Below are positions 1 through 7,807 of a stretch of 7,807 nt of DNA, in pieces. The notes under the pieces are model-generated. The model saw nothing but the letters and a program-made list of their open reading frames with translations. It had not been told where the DNA came from and searched no databases. The DNA lies in assembly GCA_902388545.1 (NCBI GenBank), contig CABMPS010000086.1, positions 1 through 7,807 of the forward strand, written 5' to 3'. The DNA comes from an uncultured Collinsella sp. (lineage in GTDB: Bacteria; Actinomycetota; Coriobacteriia; Coriobacteriales; Coriobacteriaceae). Both the position numbers and the translations under genes were made by a program. Position 1 is the stretch's first letter; each line of letters begins with the position of its first letter.

Positions 1-584
1 GACTTGGCAACGGTCGTGCCGTCGGTAATCAGGTCGACTTCGCCCGAAACCACTGCGGCACCGCCTGTGTAGCGGGCGAGTGCCACGGCGGCATCGCGGG
101 CGGCGTCGACCGTGTCGGTGGTATCGACACCGCGCACGCGGCTCAGATCGGCCGCCTCGCCCTCAAGACCCCACAGGCCGGCGAGAGCGATGATCTCGGA
201 GGCGTTGCCGCGCACGATGGCGGGCTTGTACTGCTTGAGTTCGCTTACCAGTTGGGTGCGCAAGCTGCCGATGCCCAGGCCCACCGGATCGAGCACCCAG
301 GGCTTGCCGGCGTCGTGTGCCGCCTTGGCCGCGCGGGGGATCGTCTGCTCGTAGATGGGGAAGAGCGTTCCCATGTTCAGATAGATGGCGCCGCCGCCGG
401 CAACAAGTGCCTCGCCCTCGTCGGGAAGATAGACCATAGCGGCCGAACCGCCCACGGCGAGCTGCGCGTTGGCGACAAAGTCAATCGTCACCGTATTGGT
501 GATGGAGCCTGCCATCGGGTTGGTGGCGCGAATCTCCTCCACGGCCTTGACCACTTGTTGCTTAAGCTGTTCCGAATCGATCAC
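1..584 (-). CDS. thiM: Hydroxyethylthiazole kinase ThiM, C-terminus cut off by the window edge
   Basis: ThiM phosphorylates 4-methyl-5-(2-hydroxyethyl)thiazole in the cytoplasm so that the thiazole half of thiamine can be salvaged. About 194 of the usual roughly 265 residues are visible. Family signatures seen: an N-terminal NPMAGSITNTVTIDFVANA stretch (residues 22-40), which matches the ThiM SITN/ANxLLAxGxSPxM region; VLDPVGLGIGSLRT (97-110); IVRGNASEI (123-131); and GEVDLITDG (181-189). The segment with the catalytic Cys and the ATP-site glycines lies beyond the left edge. The start is taken as GTG at 584 because AAGGAGG sits 8 bases upstream and the alignment begins there; the ATG just upstream is out of frame. 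The long leader carries a TPP riboswitch, which independently supports a thiamine role. Other thi genes may follow to the left. Confidence 0.93.
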   Translation of the reverse strand, partial: MIDSEQLKQQVVKAVEEIRATNPMAGSITNTVTIDFVANAQLAVGGSAAMVYLPDEGEALVAGGGAIYLNMGTLFPIYEQTIPRAAKAAHDAGKPWVLDPVGLGIGSLRTQLVSELKQYKPAIVRGNASEIIALAGLWGLEGEAADLSRVRGVDTTDTVDAARDAAVALARYTGGAAVVSGEVDLITDGTTVAK

Positions 585-587
585 TGC

Positions 588-604
588 ACATGCCTCCTTG
601 GCAT
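588..604 (-). promoter_or_regulatory. Hairpin over the thiM ribosome binding site
   Basis: The minus-strand RNA reads AUGCC-AAGGA-GGCAU (604-590). This 5-bp stem holds the Shine-Dalgarno AAGGAGG partly in the loop and partly in the stem. The same GGCAUG (594-589) is also complementary to CAUGCC (651-646) at the 3' edge of the aptamer. This may add translational control to the terminator. The structure is visible, but the function is inferred. Confidence 0.45.
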
Positions 605-606
605 AG

Positions 607-636
607 AAAAGGGGCGCTGTGCATAGACAGCGGCCC
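607..636 (-). terminator. Intrinsic terminator of the TPP riboswitch expression platform
   Basis: On the minus strand GGGCCGCTGT (636-627) can fold onto ACAGCGCCCC (620-611), giving a 6-bp and a 3-bp helix around one C-C mismatch with a six-base loop, followed by TTTT (610-607). It stands between the aptamer and thiM, the expected place for a riboswitch-controlled attenuator. The plus-strand reading lacks a comparable T-run, so it is directional. Confidence 0.8.
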
Positions 637-648
637 TAAAAAGGCGGC

Positions 649-741
649 ATGCTCCCTACGCCAGCATTAACTGACAGGTTCAAAGGATTGGGCCCCATGC
701 CCTCTCAGCCTTGTGGTTTGCACCGCCGGCACTCCTGCATC
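649..741 (-). ncRNA. TPP riboswitch aptamer (THI element) in the thiM leader
   Basis: Read on the minus strand, the leader has the conserved TPP-aptamer blocks in order: AGGAGTGC at the 5' side, GGCTGAGAGG (the thi-box core CTGAGA), CCTTTGAACCTG, then TTAATGCTGGCGTAGGGA at the 3' side. The outer P1 helix can form from AUGC (about 740-737) and GCAU (652-649). The family binds thiamine pyrophosphate and normally turns thi genes off when TPP is plentiful. It lies about 65 bases upstream of the thiM start with an intrinsic terminator in between, so repression by early termination is the likely mechanism. A weak minus-strand -10 (TAGTAT, at 763-758) would start the RNA just ahead of the aptamer; no convincing -35 is seen. 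Confidence 0.93.
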
Positions 742-748
742 GAATCTG

Positions 749-778
749 TTGTTCCCTATACTAGCGCATCGGTACAAT
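749..778 (+). promoter_or_regulatory. Sigma-A-type promoter for the HAD phosphatase gene
   Basis: TTGTTC (749-754, -35) and TACAAT (773-778, -10) are separated by 18 bases, predicting a start near 785 and a leader of about 23 bases before the ATG at 808. It lies across the region where the opposing thiM transcript should begin, so the two promoters overlap back to back. Confidence 0.6.
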
Positions 779-807
779 AAATGGGGTTGAACCGAATGGG
801 GGACTCT

Positions 808-1716
808 ATGATCAAACTCGTGCTGACCGATATGGACGATACACTGATCCCGGCTGGGCATGACGGCGCCAGCGACTATGCCATTGAGGGTATTCATGCC
901 ATGCAGGCGGCGGGTCTGCACTTTGGCCCGGTTTCGGGTCGTCAACCGTCCGCGATGGGCTGGATGTTCAAAAACCGTTCCGAGTGTTTTTCGACCGGCG
1001 CATTCTGCAACGGCCAGGTTATGTTTGTCGATGGCGAAGTGGCTGCCTCGCGCGCGACCGATAACGACGCACTCATGCGTCTTGCCGCCTATCTGGAAGA
1101 AGAAACCGACGATACGTATCTGAAGGTCTACAGCTTAGGCGATGACTTTTGGGATAACGATGCCTATTGCGTGACGCGCGATTCTGAGCGCGTGCGCCGC
1201 GCTATGGAGTCGGGCGGCAATGCGTGGCTCAAAGGCGAAGAAGCCCCGTGTCGGCCGACGATTGATGAGGGTCCGGTATATAAGGCGAATATCTGGAGCG
1301 CCCGTTCGCGTGAGGAGCTCGCGGAGCTACGCGAGCGCGTTGCCGCCGAGGTGCCGGAGCTCTCGCTTGTGTTTCCCAACAACCGCGTGCGCCTATTCGA
1401 TATTCTCCCGGCCGGTTGGGACAAGGGCTGTGCTGCGCTGGAGCTGGCGCGCGCTTTGGGCCTGACGTCCGACGAGGTGGCCGTATTCGGCGATTCCGAT
1501 AACGACCTGCCCATGATCGATGCCGTTCCCAATTCCGTTGCCGTCGCCAATGCCAACGAGGCCGTCACGGCTGCCGCGCGCTGGCATATCGGCGCTGCGG
1601 CAGATGATGCGGTTGCCGGGGCTCTGCATCAGATTGCCGCCTGCGCCGCGACGGGGGAGATGCCGCCGTTTATGCGTCAGATGGATGCGACGGGTTTCGA
1701 CGTCACGAACGTCTAG
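808..1716 (+). CDS. Cof-type HAD-superfamily (IIB) phosphatase
   Basis: A predicted cytoplasmic, Mg-dependent phosphatase of 302 residues, close to the usual 260-300 for Cof-type HAD IIB enzymes. All four HAD motifs are visible: motif I DMDDT at 8-12 (nucleophile Asp8, acid/base Asp10), motif II Ser43 in PVSGRQ, motif III Lys206 in GWDKG, and motif IV GDSDNDLPM at 228-236. The stretch between motifs II and III, about 85-185, is the C2 cap that sets substrate choice. ATG 808 is preferred over the in-frame ATGs at 781 and 796 because GGGGGA lies 6 bases upstream and MIKLVLTDMDDT is the standard family start. The physiological substrate cannot be read from sequence; the family acts on sugar phosphates, nucleotides, FMN or, for E. 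coli Cof, HMP-PP. It ends 10 bases before the LysR gene, so the two are probably co-transcribed. Confidence 0.9.
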   Translation: MIKLVLTDMDDTLIPAGHDGASDYAIEGIHAMQAAGLHFGPVSGRQPSAMGWMFKNRSECFSTGAFCNGQVMFVDGEVAASRATDNDALMRLAAYLEEETDDTYLKVYSLGDDFWDNDAYCVTRDSERVRRAMESGGNAWLKGEEAPCRPTIDEGPVYKANIWSARSREELAELRERVAAEVPELSLVFPNNRVRLFDILPAGWDKGCAALELARALGLTSDEVAVFGDSDNDLPMIDAVPNSVAVANANEAVTAAARWHIGAAADDAVAGALHQIAACAATGEMPPFMRQMDATGFDVTNV

Positions 1717-1726
1717 GGAGGGCGCT

Positions 1727-2623
1727 ATGAAGCTTCAGCAGCTCAGATATGTCGTCAAAGTTGCCGAATGCGGCAGCATCACCGAGGCCTCGCGCCGACT
1801 CTTTGTGTCGCAGCCTTCGATTACCGCGTCGATCCGCGATCTCGAAAACGAGATGGGCGTGCACATCTTTGAGCGCACTAACAAGGGCGTCGTTGTGTCC
1901 GAGGAAGGCGAGACCTTCTTGGGCTATGCGCGCCAGGTACTCGACCAGGCCGACCTGCTCGAGGGCAAGTACAAGGGCACATCCGAGCAGGTGCCGCATT
2001 TTAGTGTGAGCTGCCAGCATTATTCCTTTGCCGTTAACGCGTTTGTTGACGTGATCCGCGAGTTCGATGCCGCACGTTACGACTTCACCCTGCGCGAGGA
2101 GCAGACCCACGAGATTATCGAGGATGTCGCGCACATGAAAAGCGAACTGGGCATTCTGTACTTATCCGAGCATAACCGCGAGGTTATCGAGCGCATGCTG
2201 GCGGCCAACGAGCTCGTGTTCGAGGGGCTCTTCTGCGCCAAGCCGCATGTCTTTGTATGCGCCGACCATCCACTGGCGGACCACGCCAGCGTGACGCTCG
2301 AAGATCTCGAGGACTATCCGTTTTTATCCTACGAGCAGGGCAGCTACAACTCGTTTTACTATTCCGAGGAGCTGACCTCGACGTTTGAGCGTCGCAAGAA
2401 TATTCGCGTGCGCGACCGTGCGACGCTGTTCAACCTGGCCATGGGCCTCAACGGCTACACGGTGTGTTCGGGCGTGATTAGCCACGAACTCAACGGTCCC
2501 GGCATCATTTCGATTCCGCTCGATGTAGACGAGTACATGGAGATCGGCATCATCACGCGCAAAAATACGACGCTCACGCGCTACGGCCAAGCCTATATCG
2601 ACGCGATCCGTCAGCATATCTAG
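1727..2623 (+). CDS. LysR-type transcriptional regulator, MtaR/CmbR-like
   Basis: This is a 298-residue DNA-binding regulator of normal LysR length. Residues 1-60 are the winged helix-turn-helix: MKLQQLRYVVKVAECGSI, then TEASRRLFVSQPSITASIRDLE, then the wing around GVHIFERTNKGVVVSEEG. Residues from about 90 to the end are the periplasmic-binding-protein-like effector domain, beginning FSVSCQHYSFAVNAFVDVI. The LQQLRYVV start, the IFERTNKG wing and the FSVSxQHY entry resemble the methionine/cysteine regulators of the MtaR/CmbR/HomR group as I remember them; this is recognition, not a search. ATG 1727 follows AGGGAGGG closely and lies 10 bases after the HAD stop; longer upstream reading is only overlap with the HAD gene. 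The nearest downstream gene is a methionine synthase homologue with a LysR-type dyad in its promoter region, which makes it the probable target. Confidence 0.9.
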   Translation: MKLQQLRYVVKVAECGSITEASRRLFVSQPSITASIRDLENEMGVHIFERTNKGVVVSEEGETFLGYARQVLDQADLLEGKYKGTSEQVPHFSVSCQHYSFAVNAFVDVIREFDAARYDFTLREEQTHEIIEDVAHMKSELGILYLSEHNREVIERMLAANELVFEGLFCAKPHVFVCADHPLADHASVTLEDLEDYPFLSYEQGSYNSFYYSEELTSTFERRKNIRVRDRATLFNLAMGLNGYTVCSGVISHELNGPGIISIPLDVDEYMEIGIITRKNTTLTRYGQAYIDAIRQHI

Positions 2624-2669
2624 GCTGCTGTGCTCCGCGCGGGTCAAATTTCTTTATGGCAGTCCAGAC

Positions 2670-2692
2670 TGATATAGGAATTATCTATATCA
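2670..2692. promoter_or_regulatory. MET-box-like LysR operator dyad
   Basis: Two perfect 8-base arms, TGATATAG (2670-2677) and CTATATCA (2685-2692), flank a 7-base centre. The site contains the T-N11-A pattern of LysR boxes. Its inner 17 bases have the form TATAG-N7-CTATA, the same outer halves and spacing as the streptococcal MtaR/MetR MET-box (TATAGTTTNAAACTATA, from memory). It lies about 87 bases before the methionine synthase start and just after the LysR gene. The role as an operator is inferred. Confidence 0.65.
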
Positions 2693-2706
2693 AACTGTTA
2701 TAAACG

Positions 2707-2712
2707 TATATT
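2707..2712 (+). promoter_or_regulatory. Probable -10 element for the methionine synthase gene
   Basis: TATATT lies in the AT-rich stretch after the dyad; a second candidate, TATAAA, is at 2699-2704. Nothing near 2684-2690 looks like TTGACA, and the dyad occupies the place of the -35. A poor -35 under a LysR-type site fits an activator-dependent promoter, with a start near 2719 and a leader of about 60 bases. No clear terminator separates it from the LysR gene, so read-through is also possible. Confidence 0.4.
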
Positions 2713-2724
2713 TTACGATGGCCA

Positions 2725-2738
2725 TATGAGCGCTCATA
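2725..2738. repeat. 14-base perfect palindrome in the methionine synthase leader
   Basis: TATGAGCGCTCATA reads the same on both strands with no spacer. It sits downstream of the likely -10, between promoter and start codon, where a repressor could bind. Having no loop, it is unlikely to act as an RNA hairpin. No regulator is recognised for it. Confidence 0.5.
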
Positions 2739-2778
2739 CTCTGTCCCAGTAAAGCAACCAATGCAAAGGGAGATATCT

Positions 2779-3912
2779 ATGAGCACTTCAATTCAACCGA
2801 ACGCGCCGTTTCGCGCCGATATCGTCGGCAGTTTTCTTCGTCCGCAGGTCGTGAAGGACGCCCGTGCCGCCTACGCCGCGGGTACGCTCGATGCCGAGGG
2901 GCTTAAGGCCGTCGAGGATGAGGCTATTCGCGACCTGGTGGACAAGCAAAAGACCGCCGGCCTGCAGGTCATCACCGATGGCGAGTTTCGCCGCAGCTAC
3001 TGGCACCTCGATTTTATGTGGGGGCTGAACGGCGTCGAGCGTCGCACCTCGCGTACGGGCTATATGTTCCACGATGAGGAGACCACCGCCGACACCGCCG
3101 TGGTGACTGGCCCCATTAGCGGCGAGAGTCATCCGTTCGTCGAGCACTTCAAATTTGTCAAGGCGCTCGAGGGGGAGGGCCAGGTCGCGCGCCAGACCAT
3201 TCCGGCGCCGATCCAGACGTTCTCCGAAGTCACGCTCGACCGCTGTGATGGCCAGCAGGAGAGTCTGCACGCTGTCTACAAGACCGACGAAGAGCTCGTC
3301 GACGCCATCGCGGCGGCATACCGCACGGTGATCGCCGACCTGTATGCCGCGGGCTGTCGCAACATCCAATTTGATGACTGCACCTGGGGGATCTATTGCG
3401 ATACCGACTTTGTGGCAAAGACTGGTATGAGCCCGGTCGACCTGCAAAAGGTGTCCGAGCTGGGCGTGGCGCTCAACAACGCCGCCATCGCGGGCAAGCC
3501 CGACGACCTGGTCATCAACACGCATGTGTGCCGTGGTAATTACCACTCTACCTATGCCTTCGAGGGCGGCTACGACCCCATCGCGCCGTATCTGTTCGCA
3601 CACGAGAACGTCGATGCGTTCTACCTTGAGTTCGATACACCGCGCGCCGGTGGCTTTGAGCCGCTGAAGTATGTTGCCCCCGGCAAGAAGGTCGTGTTGG
3701 GCCTAGTGACCACCAAGGCCGCTGAGCTTGAGGATGAGGATGCCATCGTTGAGCGTATTCACGAGGCTGCAAAGTATGTTCCGCTCGAGAACCTGTATCT
3801 GTCTCCGCAGTGTGGCTTTGCCAGCTGCGAGATTGGCAACAAGCTGACCGAGGACGAGCAGTGGGCGAAGATCGCGCTGGTCAGGCGCATCGCCGAACGC
3901 GTTTGGAAATAG
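2779..3912 (+). CDS. Core-type cobalamin-independent methionine synthase family protein (YxjG/YxjH-like)
   Basis: This is a 377-residue cytoplasmic protein of the MetE C-terminal-domain family, about half the length of full MetE (about 750), so it lacks the MetE N-terminal domain. It should be a TIM barrel that transfers a methyl group to homocysteine to make methionine. The start matches the family: FRADIVGSFLRP (11-22). The zinc and homocysteine site is intact: His249 and Cys251 in INTHVCRGN, Glu284 in YLEFD, and Cys345 in SPQCGF. QFDDCTW (197-203) is the conserved strand before it. ATG 2779 is chosen because AAAGGGAG (2765-2772) lies 6 bases upstream; the in-frame ATG at 2761 lacks such a site. 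The methyl donor of short members is uncertain and differs from the folate triglutamate of full MetE in some lineages. Context with an MtaR-like regulator and MET-box-like site supports a methionine supply role. Confidence 0.9.
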   Translation: MSTSIQPNAPFRADIVGSFLRPQVVKDARAAYAAGTLDAEGLKAVEDEAIRDLVDKQKTAGLQVITDGEFRRSYWHLDFMWGLNGVERRTSRTGYMFHDEETTADTAVVTGPISGESHPFVEHFKFVKALEGEGQVARQTIPAPIQTFSEVTLDRCDGQQESLHAVYKTDEELVDAIAAAYRTVIADLYAAGCRNIQFDDCTWGIYCDTDFVAKTGMSPVDLQKVSELGVALNNAAIAGKPDDLVINTHVCRGNYHSTYAFEGGYDPIAPYLFAHENVDAFYLEFDTPRAGGFEPLKYVAPGKKVVLGLVTTKAAELEDEDAIVERIHEAAKYVPLENLYLSPQCGFASCEIGNKLTEDEQWAKIALVRRIAERVWK

Positions 3913-3959
3913 CGCTAGCGTTTGCAGGTGGCGGCGCGTGCGAGGCACTGCGTATCGCG

Positions 3960-3965
3960 TACAAT
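3960..3965 (+). promoter_or_regulatory. Possible -10 element for the permease gene
   Basis: TACAAT stands 70 bases before the permease ATG in the 122-base gap. No good -35 lies 16-18 bases upstream, and no terminator is seen after the preceding gene, so the permease could also be transcribed by read-through. Confidence 0.3.
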
Positions 3966-3979
3966 GGTTCGGATCGTAT

Positions 3980-4011
3980 CGTTCGGGCAGGTTATCCAAT
4001 ATGCCCGATCG
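3980..4011 (+). promoter_or_regulatory. Leader hairpin upstream of the permease
   Basis: CGTTCGGGCA (3980-3989) pairs with TGCCCGATCG (4002-4011): nine base pairs and one T-T mismatch around a 12-base loop. No T-run follows, so it is not an ordinary terminator, and the loop lacks the PyrR-binding sequence I would expect in pyrimidine leaders. It ends 23 bases before the ATG, short of the ribosome binding site GAAAGGA (4023-4029). Role unknown. Confidence 0.5.
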
Positions 4012-4034
4012 CCCTTCCATTCGAAAGGACATCC

Positions 4035-5369
4035 ATGTCCCAGTCTTCGACGCCCGCCGTCGCCGATGCCATCTACGATGCGTCATCGCTCGGCCGCCCG
4101 CGCATGTTCCTACTCGGTCTGCAGCATCTATTTGCCATGTTTGGCGCCACGGTGTTGGTGCCCGTGCTCACCGGTCTCTCGGTGTCGGCAACGCTTTTGT
4201 TTGCCGGCTTGGGCACGCTGCTGTTCCACTTCCTGTCGCGCGGTAAGGTGCCGGCCTTCTTGGGCTCGTCGTTTGCCTTTATTGCCGGTTATGCCGCAAT
4301 CGCGCCCAACGGCGAGGCCGAGCTTTTGCCCTACGCTTGCCTGGGCGTAGCTTGTGCCGGCCTGCTCTATCCGGTGCTGGCGGCCCTGTTCCGCGCGTTT
4401 GGCGCCAAGCGCGTCATGCGCTTCTTTCCGCCGGTGGTGACCGGCCCCATCGTCATTTCGATCGGCCTAATCTTGGCAAGCTCTGCCATCGCTAACTGCC
4501 AGACCAATTGGCTTGTTGCCGTTGTCGCTGTGGCTGTGATCGTCATCTGCAACATCTGGGGCCGCGGCATGGTCAAGATCGTGCCGATTCTGCTGGGTGT
4601 TGTGGTGAGCTATGCCGTTGCCGCCGCGCTCGGCGAGGTTGATTTCTCGGGCGTTGCCGCCGCGCCGTGGGTCGGTCTTCCCATCGTGTGGGACAACACC
4701 GTGTTTGCGCTCTTTGGCCCGCAGTTCGATAGCGGTCTTGCCACGACGGCCATCATCACCATTATGCCGCTGGCCTTTGCGACTATGATCGAGCATATTG
4801 GTGATATCTCCGCTATCGGCTCGACTTGCGAGCGCAACTACATTGCCGATCCCGGCCTGCATCGCACCCTGCTTGGCGATGGCCTGGCGACCATTCTCGC
4901 ATCGCTCTTTGGCGCTCCGGCTAACACCACCTATGGCGAGAACACCGGTGTGCTTGCCCTGACGCGTGTGTTTGACCCGCGCGTGATTCGCATTGCCGCG
5001 TGTTGCGCCATTGTGCTCTCGTTCTGCCCCAAGTTCGCGGCTGTCATTGCGGCCATGCCGGCGTGTGTGATCGGCGGCGTGTCACTCGTGCTCTATGGCA
5101 TGATCAGTGCGGTAGGTGTGCGTAACCTCATCGAGAACCAGGTCGATTTCCAGAACAACCGCAACGTGCTGGTGGCCGCTCTGGTGCTGGTGCTTTCACT
5201 CGGCATTGCTTACAGCACTGCCGGTGCTATCGTGTTGGAGCTGGGCGGCGTGACCATTTCGCTTTCGGGTCTTGCCGTGGGTTCGCTGGTGGGCATTGTG
5301 CTCAATGCCATCCTACCGGGTAACGACTTTGAGTTTGATGTCTCCGAGCTTGAGGAGGCTGCTGAGTAA
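4035..5369 (+). CDS. uraA: NCS2-family nucleobase permease, probably uracil (UraA-like)
   Basis: This is a 444-residue integral membrane protein, near the 429 of E. coli UraA, that should import uracil or a related base with protons. Hydrophobic segments fill almost the whole length, consistent with the 14-helix UraA fold. Landmarks: LQHLFAMFGATVLVPVLTG (29-47) in helix 1, FLGSSFAFIA (75-84) in the unwound helix 3, MIEHIGD (251-257) with the substrate-site Glu253, and the NCS2 signature GAPANTTYGENTGVLALTRV (293-312) with Glu302. The UraA-like helix 1 and the GENTG motif favour uracil; xanthine/uric acid members usually carry Gln in the signature. ATG 4035 follows GAAAGGA by 5 bases; extending further upstream would overlap the preceding gene. 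It lies 122 bases after the methionine synthase with no obvious functional tie and ends at a shared terminator. Confidence 0.9.
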   Translation: MSQSSTPAVADAIYDASSLGRPRMFLLGLQHLFAMFGATVLVPVLTGLSVSATLLFAGLGTLLFHFLSRGKVPAFLGSSFAFIAGYAAIAPNGEAELLPYACLGVACAGLLYPVLAALFRAFGAKRVMRFFPPVVTGPIVISIGLILASSAIANCQTNWLVAVVAVAVIVICNIWGRGMVKIVPILLGVVVSYAVAAALGEVDFSGVAAAPWVGLPIVWDNTVFALFGPQFDSGLATTAIITIMPLAFATMIEHIGDISAIGSTCERNYIADPGLHRTLLGDGLATILASLFGAPANTTYGENTGVLALTRVFDPRVIRIAACCAIVLSFCPKFAAVIAAMPACVIGGVSLVLYGMISAVGVRNLIENQVDFQNNRNVLVAALVLVLSLGIAYSTAGAIVLELGGVTISLSGLAVGSLVGIVLNAILPGNDFEFDVSELEEAAE

Positions 5370-5388
5370 CAACTGCGTCCAGCTGAAT

Positions 5389-5428
5389 CAAAAAATGGCG
5401 CCCATGCGTACGCGCGGGCGTCATTTTT
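5389..5428. terminator. Bidirectional intrinsic terminator between convergent genes
   Basis: ATGGCGCCC (5395-5403) pairs with GGGCGTCAT (5416-5424), nine pairs including one G-T, around a 12-base loop. A-run AAAAAA (about 5390-5395) precedes it and TTTTT (5424-5428) follows, so it can end the plus-strand permease and the minus-strand hydrolase. The hydrolase stop codon (5429-5427) lies in the T-run. Confidence 0.85.
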
Positions 5429-6092
5429 AATGCGTCAATATCCAGTGGATGCCACGTGCCATGCGCAGATCGGTTTGGGCAAAGTGATTGCCGGGGTTGA
5501 GCTCCAGCGTTGTTGGAATGCCGCGCGCGACGAGCAACGCTTCCATCGCGCGTGTGTCGTCGAGTACATGCCGCATCATGCGGTTGGGTGTCTTGGTCTC
5601 CTTTTTGCCGAGTGACAGATAGACGGCCTGCGGGTTGCCGGCAAAAGGGGCCGTGCTGGCGCGATCGACAAAGTCGGGAAACCACAACGACCCCGATGCG
5701 CTTGCGGCGCGGCTAAAGGCGTCGGTTTGCCAGAGGGACCAGAGCGCGAAGAGGCCCGCGAGCGAGTAGCCGGCAATGCCGCGCCAGGTGGGCGGCTGAG
5801 GAAGCGACGACTCGGCCTCTGGGATTATCCAGTTCAACAGCTCATCGAGAAATCCGGAAGCCTGACCGCCAAAGGGCTCGGCATCGCGCACGGTTCCGTC
5901 GCATCCCCAGGGGCTCAGCTCGCGATTCCAGTTGAGGCTGCCAATGCCGACAAGCGTGAAGGGCGGGCAGTTGAGCTCTCGGCAGCGTTCATAAACCTCC
6001 GCGCCGTCGCCCATGACCACGGGAAGATAGATGACTGGTGCGCTTTCGGCATGCTGTGCATGAACGGTTATCTGCTTTTGATGCGCTTCCAT
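5427..6092 (-). CDS. Alpha/beta hydrolase, esterase-type
   Basis: This is a 221-residue predicted cytoplasmic alpha/beta hydrolase with no signal peptide. The nucleophile elbow GYSLAG has Ser110 (GxSxxG), and the catalytic histidine is probably His203 in NPGNHFAQTD. YLPVVMGDG (22-30) and GIGSLNWNRELSPW (49-62) look like the strand and oxyanion regions of small esterases related to the enterochelin-esterase (Fes/IroE) superfamily. The acid of the triad is not certain; some IroE-like enzymes work as a Ser-His pair. LSLGKKETKTPNRMM (159-173) is a typical late segment in this group. ATG 6092 is preferred; an in-frame GTG at 6140 would add 16 residues without family-like character. The ribosome binding site (GAGAGAAG) is mediocre. 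The substrate is unknown, and no siderophore genes are visible to support an iron role. Its promoter must lie in 6093-6204, where I find no strong candidate. Confidence 0.82.
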   Translation of the reverse strand: MEAHQKQITVHAQHAESAPVIYLPVVMGDGAEVYERCRELNCPPFTLVGIGSLNWNRELSPWGCDGTVRDAEPFGGQASGFLDELLNWIIPEAESSLPQPPTWRGIAGYSLAGLFALWSLWQTDAFSRAASASGSLWFPDFVDRASTAPFAGNPQAVYLSLGKKETKTPNRMMRHVLDDTRAMEALLVARGIPTTLELNPGNHFAQTDLRMARGIHWILTH

Positions 6093-6204
6093 GACGGGCT
6101 TCTCTCGGCGTTGTGATATCGACGGCCCCCATTGTCGCACGCCGGCTCATGCAGGTTGGGCTAGACAAAAGACAATCTCGTGCATACCCTGCGGACGCAT
6201 ATGG

Positions 6205-6242
6205 AAAACGCCACCGCCGGAGGGGAGCTCGGCGGTGGCGTT
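6205..6242 (-). terminator. Strong intrinsic terminator after the surface protein gene
   Basis: A perfect 13-bp stem, AACGCCACCGCCG (6207-6219 on plus) with CGGCGGTGGCGTT (6230-6242), has a 10-base loop and is followed on the minus strand by TTTT and CC. It lies about 58 bases after the surface protein stop and isolates that gene from the hydrolase downstream. Confidence 0.88.
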
Positions 6243-6299
6243 GTTAAACGGTGCTGGGACTCGGGGCCTTCGCGGGAGCTGCCATGTGCGCAGAGGCGT

Positions 6300-7807
6300 C
6301 TACGAGCGTTTGCGGCTCGCCATGGTGCCTGCGGCGATAGCGGCTGTTCCCGCAAGGACGGTTGCCACGATGGCCGCACCCGAGGTGTCGCCGGTTGCCG
6401 CGAGCACGCCCGTGGCCTTGGCTTTCGTGGTTGAAGCCGCAACGGCCTTGGTCGGCTTTGAGCCCTCAGGCTTGGGGTTCTGCTTGGACTCCGCGGGCTT
6501 GCTTTCTGCGGGCTTGGTCTCGTCGGGCTTGGGGTCTTCCGGCTTGGCTACCTCGGGAGGTGCGATGGTCGTGCTTTTGGCGACTGCTTTGATATAGAGG
6601 GAGTCGACCGTGGCGTCGCCCGTGCCGATGGCTTGGCCTGCCTCGTAGATGCCGTCACGGAGCTTGCGATAGTCAACGACCTTGCCGCCTTCGGGCGTCT
6701 GGATGGCGGCGTTCTCAATCTTGATGGTGCCGATTGTCTTGCCGTCAGCGCTCATGGCACGGGCAAAGATTGCCGCTGTATCTCCTTCGGCCGTTACCTT
6801 GCTGCGGATGATCGAGATGACTGCGGGTGTGACGCCCTCGCTGGTCTGGGCGATGATGCCGATGTTCTCGCCTTGGGGTTCGCGCCTCGTCTCGCCATCT
6901 TGGTTTTCGCTGTAGGGGATGGGGCCGTCGCCGTTCTCGACATAGCGGGCTATGGCCTTGACAACGGAGTCGCTGATGTAGATGTGGCCACCCTTCTCGT
7001 TGGGTCGATCGTTTCTGGTGGAGAATGCAGCCGAAATCTCGCCTTCCGCAAACGCGTCCACGGTGGAGCCGTTCTTGACGACGATGTCGTCCTGGTAGGT
7101 GAAGAGGGCGATGGCGCCACCGTATCTGCCTTTACTTGCACGGACCGTCACGTTTGCATGATCGAGGGTGATGCCCTTGTGGGCATAGACGCCATATTCA
7201 ACACCGTTTACGTTGAGGGAGGCGTTTGTGGCTGCGAGGCTGCCCTTGGCCTCGACGGCAGCGTCTTTCTCGGAGCTTGCCTTGACCTGGCTGCCGTCCG
7301 AGATGTTGATACTGCCGCCGCTCCAAAGGGCCTCACCATCGGCTGAGCTTGCCTCGACCGTCCCGCCACCCTTGATGGTGAGGTTCTTGTCGGTTCCAAT
7401 ACCCTTGTCCTTGGTAGCCCTGGCGGTGACGGATTCGCTGTCGTCAATCGTGATATTGCCGTTTGCCCTGATGCCATCCGATGCACCCGTGGCGTTGACG
7501 TTGCCCGAACCTTTGATAGCGAGATCGCCCCCGGCATTGATGGCATCAAACCCAGTGCTCGTGGCGTTGACGGATCCGGCTCCGTCGATGTTGATATTAC
7601 CCGTGGAGAGGATAGCGTCCTCAGTAGATGTCACGCTGAGCGTGCTGCCCGCGTTGCCTTGGATATTGAGCTCGGCGTTCTCATTCTTGCCATGAGAAGC
7701 CTTGATGCCTTCGATCCAGTCGGCAGTGACGATGTTGTTTCCCGAGTAATTCACGTTGAGCTTGCCTGCGGCCTGGATCTCGCCGCCGTTATAGTTGTTG
7801 AGCTTCA
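6300..7807 (-). CDS. Sortase-anchored repeat surface protein, N-terminus beyond the window
   Basis: The reading frame is open to the right edge, so the visible 501 codons are the C-terminal part of a larger protein; the GTG at 7754 is internal (KLNVNYSGNN). The first roughly 220 visible residues are regular 23-25-residue units rich in Gly, Asn, Ala, Ser and Thr, as in parallel beta-helix adhesins. A less regular region follows with the same strand pattern (IVVKNGSTVDAFAEG, HIYISDSVVKAIA, VISIIRSKVTAEGDTAAIFA). Then comes a Pro/Lys/Glu-rich linker, a sortase signal LAATGD (Leu codon at 6404), a hydrophobic segment (AAIVATVLAGTAAIAAGTMA) and the basic tail RKRS. It should be exported and covalently attached to peptidoglycan. 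LAATG departs from LPxTG at position 2, a type of variation known in actinobacterial sortase substrates. The ligand is unknown; no named adhesin is recognised. The signal peptide and any upstream domains are out of view. Confidence 0.88.
   Translation of the reverse strand, partial: KLNNYNGGEIQAAGKLNVNYSGNNIVTADWIEGIKASHGKNENAELNIQGNAGSTLSVTSTEDAILSTGNINIDGAGSVNATSTGFDAINAGGDLAIKGSGNVNATGASDGIRANGNITIDDSESVTARATKDKGIGTDKNLTIKGGGTVEASSADGEALWSGGSINISDGSQVKASSEKDAAVEAKGSLAATNASLNVNGVEYGVYAHKGITLDHANVTVRASKGRYGGAIALFTYQDDIVVKNGSTVDAFAEGEISAAFSTRNDRPNEKGGHIYISDSVVKAIARYVENGDGPIPYSENQDGETRREPQGENIGIIAQTSEGVTPAVISIIRSKVTAEGDTAAIFARAMSADGKTIGTIKIENAAIQTPEGGKVVDYRKLRDGIYEAGQAIGTGDATVDSLYIKAVAKSTTIAPPEVAKPEDPKPDETKPAESKPAESKQNPKPEGSKPTKAVAASTTKAKATGVLAATGDTSGAAIVATVLAGTAAIAAGTMASRKRS
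6447..6560 (-). repeat. Pro/Lys/Glu-rich cell-wall-spanning linker
   Basis: Thirty-eight residues between PPEVAKPEDPKP and PEGSKPTK carry a loose repeat of KPxExKP, including a tandem KPAES-KPAES. Such charged proline-rich segments commonly thread Gram-positive peptidoglycan just before the sortase signal. The near-identical tandem units could vary in number between strains. Confidence 0.75.
7103..7673 (-). repeat. 23-25-residue beta-helix-like repeats in the surface protein
   Basis: Strand starts recur at nearly constant spacing: ELNIQG, NINIDG, DLAIKG, NITIDD, NLTIKG, SINISD, SLAATN, ITLDHA, with intervals of 25, 24, 23, 24, 24, 24 and 23 codons. Each unit reads roughly [N/S/D]-hydrophobic-x-I-x-G-x-G-x-V-x-A-[S/T], then about ten residues ending in A/G-I-x-A-x-G. 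The units differ enough in sequence to be old repeats rather than recent DNA duplications. The array probably continues leftward in the protein beyond the window. Confidence 0.75.

Follow-up and report, generated by a model that had tools for sequence, protein, structure and literature searches.

A variant MET-box dyad as the likely operator of an MtaR-type LysR regulator in front of yxjG in Collinsella

The lysR-yxjG locus and its dyad

The window, by which we mean the whole stretch of DNA analysed, spans 7,807 nt of an uncultured Collinsella sp. (GCA_902388545.1, contig CABMPS010000086.1, positions 1-7,807). Its central part holds a LysR gene and a gene for a methionine synthase homologue, separated by an intergenic gap of 155 bp that contains a dyad (Table 1). 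The initial annotation had taken the flanking genes for a LysR and a YxjG-type gene, and this was confirmed by the HTH_1, LysR_substrate, Meth_synt_2 and YxjG subfamily models. It is likely that LysR regulates yxjG, and yxjG is accordingly named here as its predicted target. The HAD phosphatase gene and lysR are likely to reside on one transcript. The NCS2 permease is no fixed part of the locus, since in L005, L011, L012, L015 and L018 it was not found or is just a short fragment.

Table 1. Positions of genes and sites in the window
Feature	Position	Strand	Remarks
Hydroxyethylthiazole kinase gene	3-584	-	
TPP riboswitch	636-746	-	58.1 bits; upstream of the hydroxyethylthiazole kinase gene; ordinary
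Cof-type HAD phosphatase gene	781-1716	+	ends 10 bp before lysR; profile matches
lysR, MtaR-type LysR regulator, 298 aa	1727-2623	+	HTH_1 and LysR_substrate domains, trees
Extended imperfect dyad, 13-nt arms, 85% complementary	2665-2697 (2665-2677 / 2685-2697)		
Dyad TGATATAG-N7-CTATATCA	2670-2692		centre 2681, about -66
Left arm TGATATAG	2670-2677		
Spacer GAATTAT	2678-2684		
Right arm CTATATCA	2685-2692		
Second, overlapping imperfect TATAG-N7-CTATA-like match	2686-2702		2 mismatches
Predicted -35 element TTTACG	2712-2717	+	TTCACA or TTCCCA in relatives; cross-species alignment
Predicted -10 element CATACT	2735-2740	+	54 bp between dyad centre and first base; spacing to -35 element 17 bp
yxjG, core-type cobalamin-independent methionine synthase homologue, 377 aa	2779-3912	+	Meth_synt_2 and YxjG-type subfamily models
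NCS2 permease gene	4035-5369	+	3' of yxjG

The LysR of the window is 97-99% identical to that of the C. aerofaciens-like records L001-L021, and all 120 matches listed in a protein search with it were copies of 97-100% identity. One of these records, L004 (titled Lactobacillaceae bacterium UBA639), combines HAD pieces of 88-97% and a lysR of 97% identity with a yxjG that is just 63% identical to that of the window; its contig is likely to be misassigned or recombined.

YxjG belongs over nearly its full length to the same family as the core methionine synthases of the YxjG/YxjH type (PDB 1ypx; NCBIfam PRK06520, PRK06233), with the zinc and homocysteine residues kept. Six of the seven residues of E. 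coli MetE listed in a passage of PMC7857596 are aligned (S433, E484, D599, H641, C643 and C726), and the seventh, E665, falls by eye one column off, beside E272 of YxjG in the motif YLEFD. A full folate-binding N-terminal domain was not found in YxjG, where Meth_synt_1 matches over 33 residues, below the cut-off. The gene yxjG of B. subtilis is controlled by an S-box, whereas Rfam identified neither an S-box nor a T-box upstream of the Collinsella gene, the TPP riboswitch being the sole match in the window. For Clostridia and Bacilli, S-boxes are described as methionine control in parts of PMC5359408. Matches to a SAM riboswitch just above the cut-off were obtained in six of the 14 coriobacterial genomes (G001-G004, G006 and G007; L218-L224).

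The initial annotation had described the dyad as having perfect arms of 8 bases and the form TATAG-N7-CTATA, and the sequence upholds this. The pattern has one match without mismatches in the whole window and two with at most two mismatches, against 0.58 expected. In dinucleotide shuffles it arises in the 155-bp gap with P = 0.001, and any dyad with 8-bp arms and a 7-bp spacer with P = 0.003; over the whole window one such dyad is seen against 0.15 expected, which makes it less rare than within the gap. The argument that the dyad is no chance product rests on the comparative results. The right flank of the extended dyad resembles that of metE sites in the Lachnospiraceae. The dyad is likely the operator at which the adjacent LysR binds, and the overlapping match at its right side is possibly a further contact of LysR.

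Promoter distance and distribution in the Coriobacteriia

In the aligned lysR-yxjG gaps of the window and of L001-L027 (L022 and L024 were left out and are shown separately), the dyad is followed by a conserved TATTT-containing stretch and then by the -10-like hexamer CATACT. The predicted -35 element sits inside the TATTT-containing stretch, which may hold a second LysR contact. CATACT was chosen after inspection of the alignment, and distances were then measured in 28 promoters (the window, L001-L023, L025-L027 and L188), a set that includes kin, the window and L001-L021 being closely related. The first base of CATACT lies 54 bp from the dyad centre in 27 of these 28 coriobacterial yxjG promoters. 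The remaining one, L002, was scored at 56 bp, with two registers tying at 2 mismatches, the other of which gives 54 bp. This distance is constant among promoters in which that from lysR to the dyad varies, and a TTTACG, TTCACA, TTCCCA or close variant is found 17 bp before CATACT. The gaps of Slackia, Eggerthella and the C. tanakaei group are unalike. In C. bouchesdurhonensis yxjG is situated away from lysR (L188 versus L024), and CATAGCCATTACCTATA is still found at 54 bp; L024 has no adjacent yxjG, and no CATACT within the stretch searched.

The promoter assignment derives from this cross-species alignment; a sigma-70 scan returned no promoter at its threshold. If transcription is assumed to start 7 bases after the -10 element, the dyad centre is positioned at about -66. 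LysR recognition sites are frequently found near -65, as a passage of PMC11602165 puts it. Among 19 aerofaciens-type sequences, 2 of 16 arm columns are variable compared to 42 of 132 columns in the rest of the gap, a difference that is not significant (p = 0.15), and in L002 and L004 the right half of the dyad is degenerate. Across the Coriobacteriia, the upstream regions of relatives carry a conserved dyad at one fixed distance from the promoter.

The composite of dyad and promoter, ATAG-N7-CTAT-N46-NATANT, was searched in 246 Coriobacteriia genomes with the reversed pattern as a control. It was found at 39 places, spread over 36 genomes, whereas the control matched at 12 places in 10 genomes. 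As many as 33 of the 39 places are located upstream of a YxjG homologue (43-97% identical), at 32-62 bp from the aligned yxjG start for 29 places and at 59-99 bp for four; the six others, two in G282 and one each in G341, G141, G186 and G331, do not precede yxjG. The gene order is lysR-box-yxjG in Collinsella and box-yxjG-lysR in G319, and the two genes are apart in G211, G199, G235, G308 and G011. In G252 and G215 (L285 and L286), lysR clusters with metY and two copies of yxjG; each of these copies has its own box and -10 element, and no box was found upstream of the metY beside lysR. One of the yxjG copies in these two loci groups with the Bacilli type and is 43-44% identical to that of the window.

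The presence of the two genes was compared in 80 coriobacterial genomes, the 36 with the composite and 44 others (cut-offs: E <= 1e-40 for YxjG and E <= 1e-90 for LysR). The LysR cut-off was set after a gap in the list had been seen; paralogues in genomes lacking yxjG reach 6e-84 at best. YxjG is encoded in 40 of the genomes, and LysR in 38 of these 40 and in none of the 40 without yxjG (Fisher p about 2e-20), in a sample that is biased, with 36 genomes picked for the composite and five (G001, G005, G009, G010 and G014) for LysR. In the remaining 39 genomes LysR accompanies yxjG in two of three cases and is found in none of the 36 genomes without yxjG (p = 0.004). The two genomes with yxjG and no LysR are G305, in which the genes are broken into frames and the box is present together with LysR pieces only, and G076, in which a match with 2 mismatches lies 193 bp upstream of yxjG and has GCCTCC at 54 bp, which is not -10-like.

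Where lysR is present but the strict composite is missing upstream of yxjG, the rule could be used as a prediction. Dyads without mismatches were found in G063 and G066, and dyads with 2 mismatches at both yxjG copies of G282; the hexamers at 54 bp are TACGAT, TAAGGT, CACACT and CACACT, respectively, and agree with TATAAT at 4, 3, 3 and 3 of the 6 positions. No box was found at the second yxjG of G010, where the best match has 3 mismatches.

Of 14 coriobacterial genomes searched for the exact TATAG-N7-CTATA, eight are of the aerofaciens type; five of these have a single place, G002 has two, and G001 and G005 have none. No recognised methionine gene follows the extra place in G002 or the single places in G010, G013 and G014. 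For the longer GATATAG-N7-CTATATC, searched across 43 Collinsella genomes with up to 2 mismatches allowed, the matches listed include at most one place per genome without mismatches. Since the strict composite is found no more than once per C. aerofaciens-type genome searched, the predicted regulon in Collinsella is likely a single gene.

Relatives in the Firmicutes and the streptococcal MET box

Relatives of the window LysR at 47-66% identity were found in the Lachnospiraceae, other Clostridia, the Bacilli and one Treponema MAG. In 30 of 44 such loci metE, yxjG, metF or metY adjoins the LysR gene (Pfam agrees for one representative each). When both sides of the LysR gene were scanned in these 30 loci, the dyad was better on the methionine-gene side in 26, tied in three (L032, L067 and L068) and worse in one, L045, where a site without mismatches, overlapping the stop codon of lysR, falls outside the scanned stretch. 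The best dyad on the methionine-gene side has 0, 1, 2 and 3 mismatches in 5, 14, 8 and 3 loci, respectively. Taken singly, 12 of the 30 dyads have a shuffle P > 0.05, and in a few loci (L036 and L041) a wrong copy of the dyad may have been picked. When the 27 sites with no more than 2 mismatches are taken together, the TATAAT profile peaks at offset 54, with a mean of 3.96 of 6 (next 3.22), and at least 5 matches to TATAAT are found at this offset in 15 of the 27. In R. bicirculans boxes precede a yxjG and a metF that are away from lysR, at 54 bp from TATACT and TATAAT.

A MET-box-like pattern was found at 18 places in 13 of the 34 genomes of the Firmicutes set, against 5 for the reversed control. 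Of the 17 places examined, 11 are before metE, yxjG, metF or metY, several of them already included among the loci above, and six are not. Together with the distribution of the composite in the Coriobacteriia, this indicates that the dyads are not distributed at random but are concentrated in front of methionine genes.

In the Streptococcaceae the methionine LysR regulators MtaR, MetR and CmhR are associated with the MET box TATAGTTTNAAACTATA (passages of PMC2627894 and PMC5359408), for which the consensus TATAGTTTnAAACTATA is given (PMC2627894, in part). The same sources describe that S. mutans MetR binds MET-box fragments and that in S. agalactiae loss of MtaR affected some of the MET-box genes, not all (PMC2627894, in part), and that promoter activity in S. 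pneumoniae drops when TATAGTTTSAAACTATA is mutated (PMC5359408, in part). The initial annotation had stated that the outer halves and the spacing are those of this box and that the inner bases differ. Indeed, TATAG, CTATA and N7 are present and for the most part retained in relatives, and the inner TTTNAAA of the full 17-bp consensus is absent from the Collinsella window, in which the spacer is GAATTAT. Because the inner bases are absent, we classify the dyad as a MET-box variant and not as a strict MET box. Firmicutes relatives such as L052 and L068 also deviate from the inner TTTNAAA.

A tier-1 LysR, 43-53% identical to that of the window, is encoded in 35 of 59 Streptococcaceae genomes, after which there is a gap to full-length paralogues (tier 2) at 31-39%. 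The exact MET box was found in 12 of the 59 genomes, all of them among the 35 with a tier-1 LysR (p = 8e-4). The 18 MET-box loci fetched flank genes for metE, MetB/MetY-like proteins, an NlpA-type lipoprotein (MetQ-like), M20 peptidase, FolD and MetK (Pfam, five representatives). The names returned in a protein search with the streptococcal tier-1 LysR were LysR family or similar, and never MtaR among the matches listed; from co-occurrence and targets, we take these proteins to be MtaR/MetR/CmhR. All 13 streptococcal boxes examined are followed by a hexamer that agrees with TATAAT in 4 or more of 6 positions, at 54 bp in eight boxes and at 53 bp in five. The mean profile is highest at 54, with 3.62 over the 13 boxes (next 3.46) and 3.88 over eight distinct ones (next 3.38). 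This peak is modest, since only in two of the 13 boxes (L171 and L173) does the hexamer at 53-54 bp outscore all others.

The phylogeny of the regulator is in line with these observations. A first tree of 89 proteins, including E. coli MetR and CysB, joined the Firmicutes, the coriobacterial and 11 tier-1 sequences (90/85) and placed E. coli MetR far outside the clade of the window LysR. A second tree of 115 rows, without E. coli outgroups and with 30 tier-1 loci, two low ones and seven more coriobacterial LysR, contains a clade of 96 rows (100/99) made up of 43 from the Firmicutes set (one of them the Treponema MAG), 32 tier-1 and 21 coriobacterial sequences. The 18 tier-2 rows are outside it, 17 of them together and the last paired with a Vagococcus paralogue. 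Thus, the LysR of the window groups with the MET-box-associated streptococcal LysR, apart from the 31-39% paralogues and from MetR and CysB of E. coli. In the DNA-binding domain tier 1 and tier 2 are about equally similar to the window LysR (47% and 49% identity), whereas the effector domain is nearer to tier 1 (48%, against 32% for tier 2; nine tier-1 rows in both comparisons), so that it is the tree of whole proteins, together with the effector domain and the sites, that links the window LysR to MtaR, and not the recognition helix. The tier-2 proteins of the Streptococcaceae, with a similar DNA-binding domain but 31-39% full-length identity and separate branches, are presumably CmbR/HomR/CysR-like; CmbR, HomR and CysR are named as LysR regulators of sulfur amino acids in parts of PMC3616900 and PMC5131005. 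E. coli MetR likewise has its gene beside that of a cobalamin-independent methionine synthase (L275, divergent metE), yet the identity to the window LysR, averaged over E. coli MetR and CysB, is about 33% for the DNA-binding domain and 18% for the effector domain.

The coriobacterial LysR fall into three groups, one of 13 rows including the window (99/99), one of G063, G066, G211 and G199 (100/94) and one of G215, G282, G235 and G308 (99/95). The group of the window is placed among Lachnospiraceae-like sequences (enclosing forks 96/87, 99/86 and 100/99). The starred branches of the LysR tree force three changes, which may reflect a number of transfers or else a single gain followed by losses. 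The YxjG tree has three changes between Firmicutes and Coriobacteriia as well, and boxes occur on divergent YxjG sublineages.

Predicted control of yxjG and other readings

We consider it highly probable that the adjacent MtaR-type LysR uses the dyad as its operator and activates yxjG under methionine shortage. Here we infer the binding, the effector, the transcription start and also the direction of control, namely activation and not repression. LysR would act as the usual pair of dimers, of which one is anchored on the dyad, near -66, and the second extends to the -35 region; when methionine runs low, the protein would bring RNA polymerase to the weak promoter TTTACG-17-CATACT. The signal would probably be homocysteine; the title of a 2007 paper by Sperandio reportedly suggests this compound. 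The proposal of the initial annotation, a methionine LysR circuit of the Firmicutes type with regulator, operator and target adjacent, is supported as a prediction by the conservation of the dyad, its concentration at methionine genes and the LysR tree.

An unlikely alternative is that LysR does bind the dyad but that the circuit represses, is autoregulatory or senses another signal, such as the methyl donor or the cobalamin state. The methyl donor may indeed be unusual, given a YxjG without the full folate-binding domain and the retention of yxjG in C. intestinalis and C. phocaeensis, for which no MTHFR was detected. However, similar boxes precede full-length metE, metF and metY in the Firmicutes, and the published relatives of this LysR are activators (passages of PMC2627894 and PMC5359408). 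The position at -66 fits activation. Upstream of lysR in four genomes with the genes in trans, the best matches carry 2, 3, 4 and 4 mismatches, respectively, and none has a -10-like hexamer 54 bp away.

It is very unlikely that the dyad is bound by another LysR paralogue, of which 41-48% identical members are found in many Coriobacteriia, or by an unrelated factor. A second LysR at 41-42% is encoded in the aerofaciens-type genomes searched, but genomes with the paralogue only (G141, G186, G331, G146, G149, G165 and G171) have no yxjG and no composite before yxjG, and it is the first-tier LysR that tracks yxjG. An RNA hairpin, e.g. a lysR terminator or a leader attenuator, was rejected as extremely unlikely: folding of the RNA strand gives -10.2 kcal/mol (z -2.4), but this is a weak hairpin in the wrong place, upstream of the predicted promoter, with no U tract after it and no call there in a terminator scan, the Rfam match of the window lies elsewhere, and the position of the dyad is kept where yxjG is far from lysR (L188) or the order is yxjG-lysR (L277).

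With the dyad read as the operator of an activating LysR, the locus likely represents an MtaR-type, single-target methionine switch in Collinsella. It shares with the MtaR/MetR/CmhR systems the LysR clade, identical outer halves and spacing of the site, methionine genes as targets and a -10 profile that is highest at the same 54 bp, modestly so in the streptococci and clearly in the Firmicutes. It differs in lacking the inner TTT/AAA, in the phylum of the host (Actinomycetota) and in likely having one target, the core-type yxjG beside the regulator, whereas the streptococci have a multi-gene regulon. We found no earlier report of this Collinsella circuit among the papers listed in searches of an open-access library. 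If true, it extends the streptococcal LysR methionine circuit to a common gut actinobacterial group and to many Clostridia and Bacilli, and the simple rule of dyad, 54 bp and -10 element would predict methionine promoters from sequence. It would also assign a likely switch, acting on one gene only, to a core methionine synthase the methyl donor of which is puzzling in Collinsella species without detected MTHFR.

With respect to the methyl donor, a Meth_synt_2 protein was found in all of the 14 coriobacterial genomes, and MTHFR and a MetH-sized protein in 12 each. The species C. intestinalis (G013, L026) and C. phocaeensis (G014, L027) keep yxjG, and neither MTHFR nor a MetH-sized protein was found in their draft assemblies, which may be incomplete; in G013 there was no S-methyl_trans match at all.

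Because the coriobacterial LysR form three separate groups among the Firmicutes, the methionine switch module, i.e. an MtaR-type LysR with an operator 54 bp from a -10 element, would have moved more than once. We see an even chance that this module moved repeatedly between Firmicutes and Coriobacteriia, stayed with methionine synthase genes of different sublineages, survived the separation of regulator and target, and was reduced in Collinsella to a single switch that senses homocysteine and serves a synthase without folate domain. It would then be the fixed 54 bp, and not the inner bases of the operator, that defines the family across two phyla.

Finally, in a cluster of nine Bacilli loci (L048, L051, L055-L057, L060, L064, L065 and L070; Pfam for one) a gene for an MFS transporter accompanies yxjG near LysR, and this transporter may import a substrate of the pathway.
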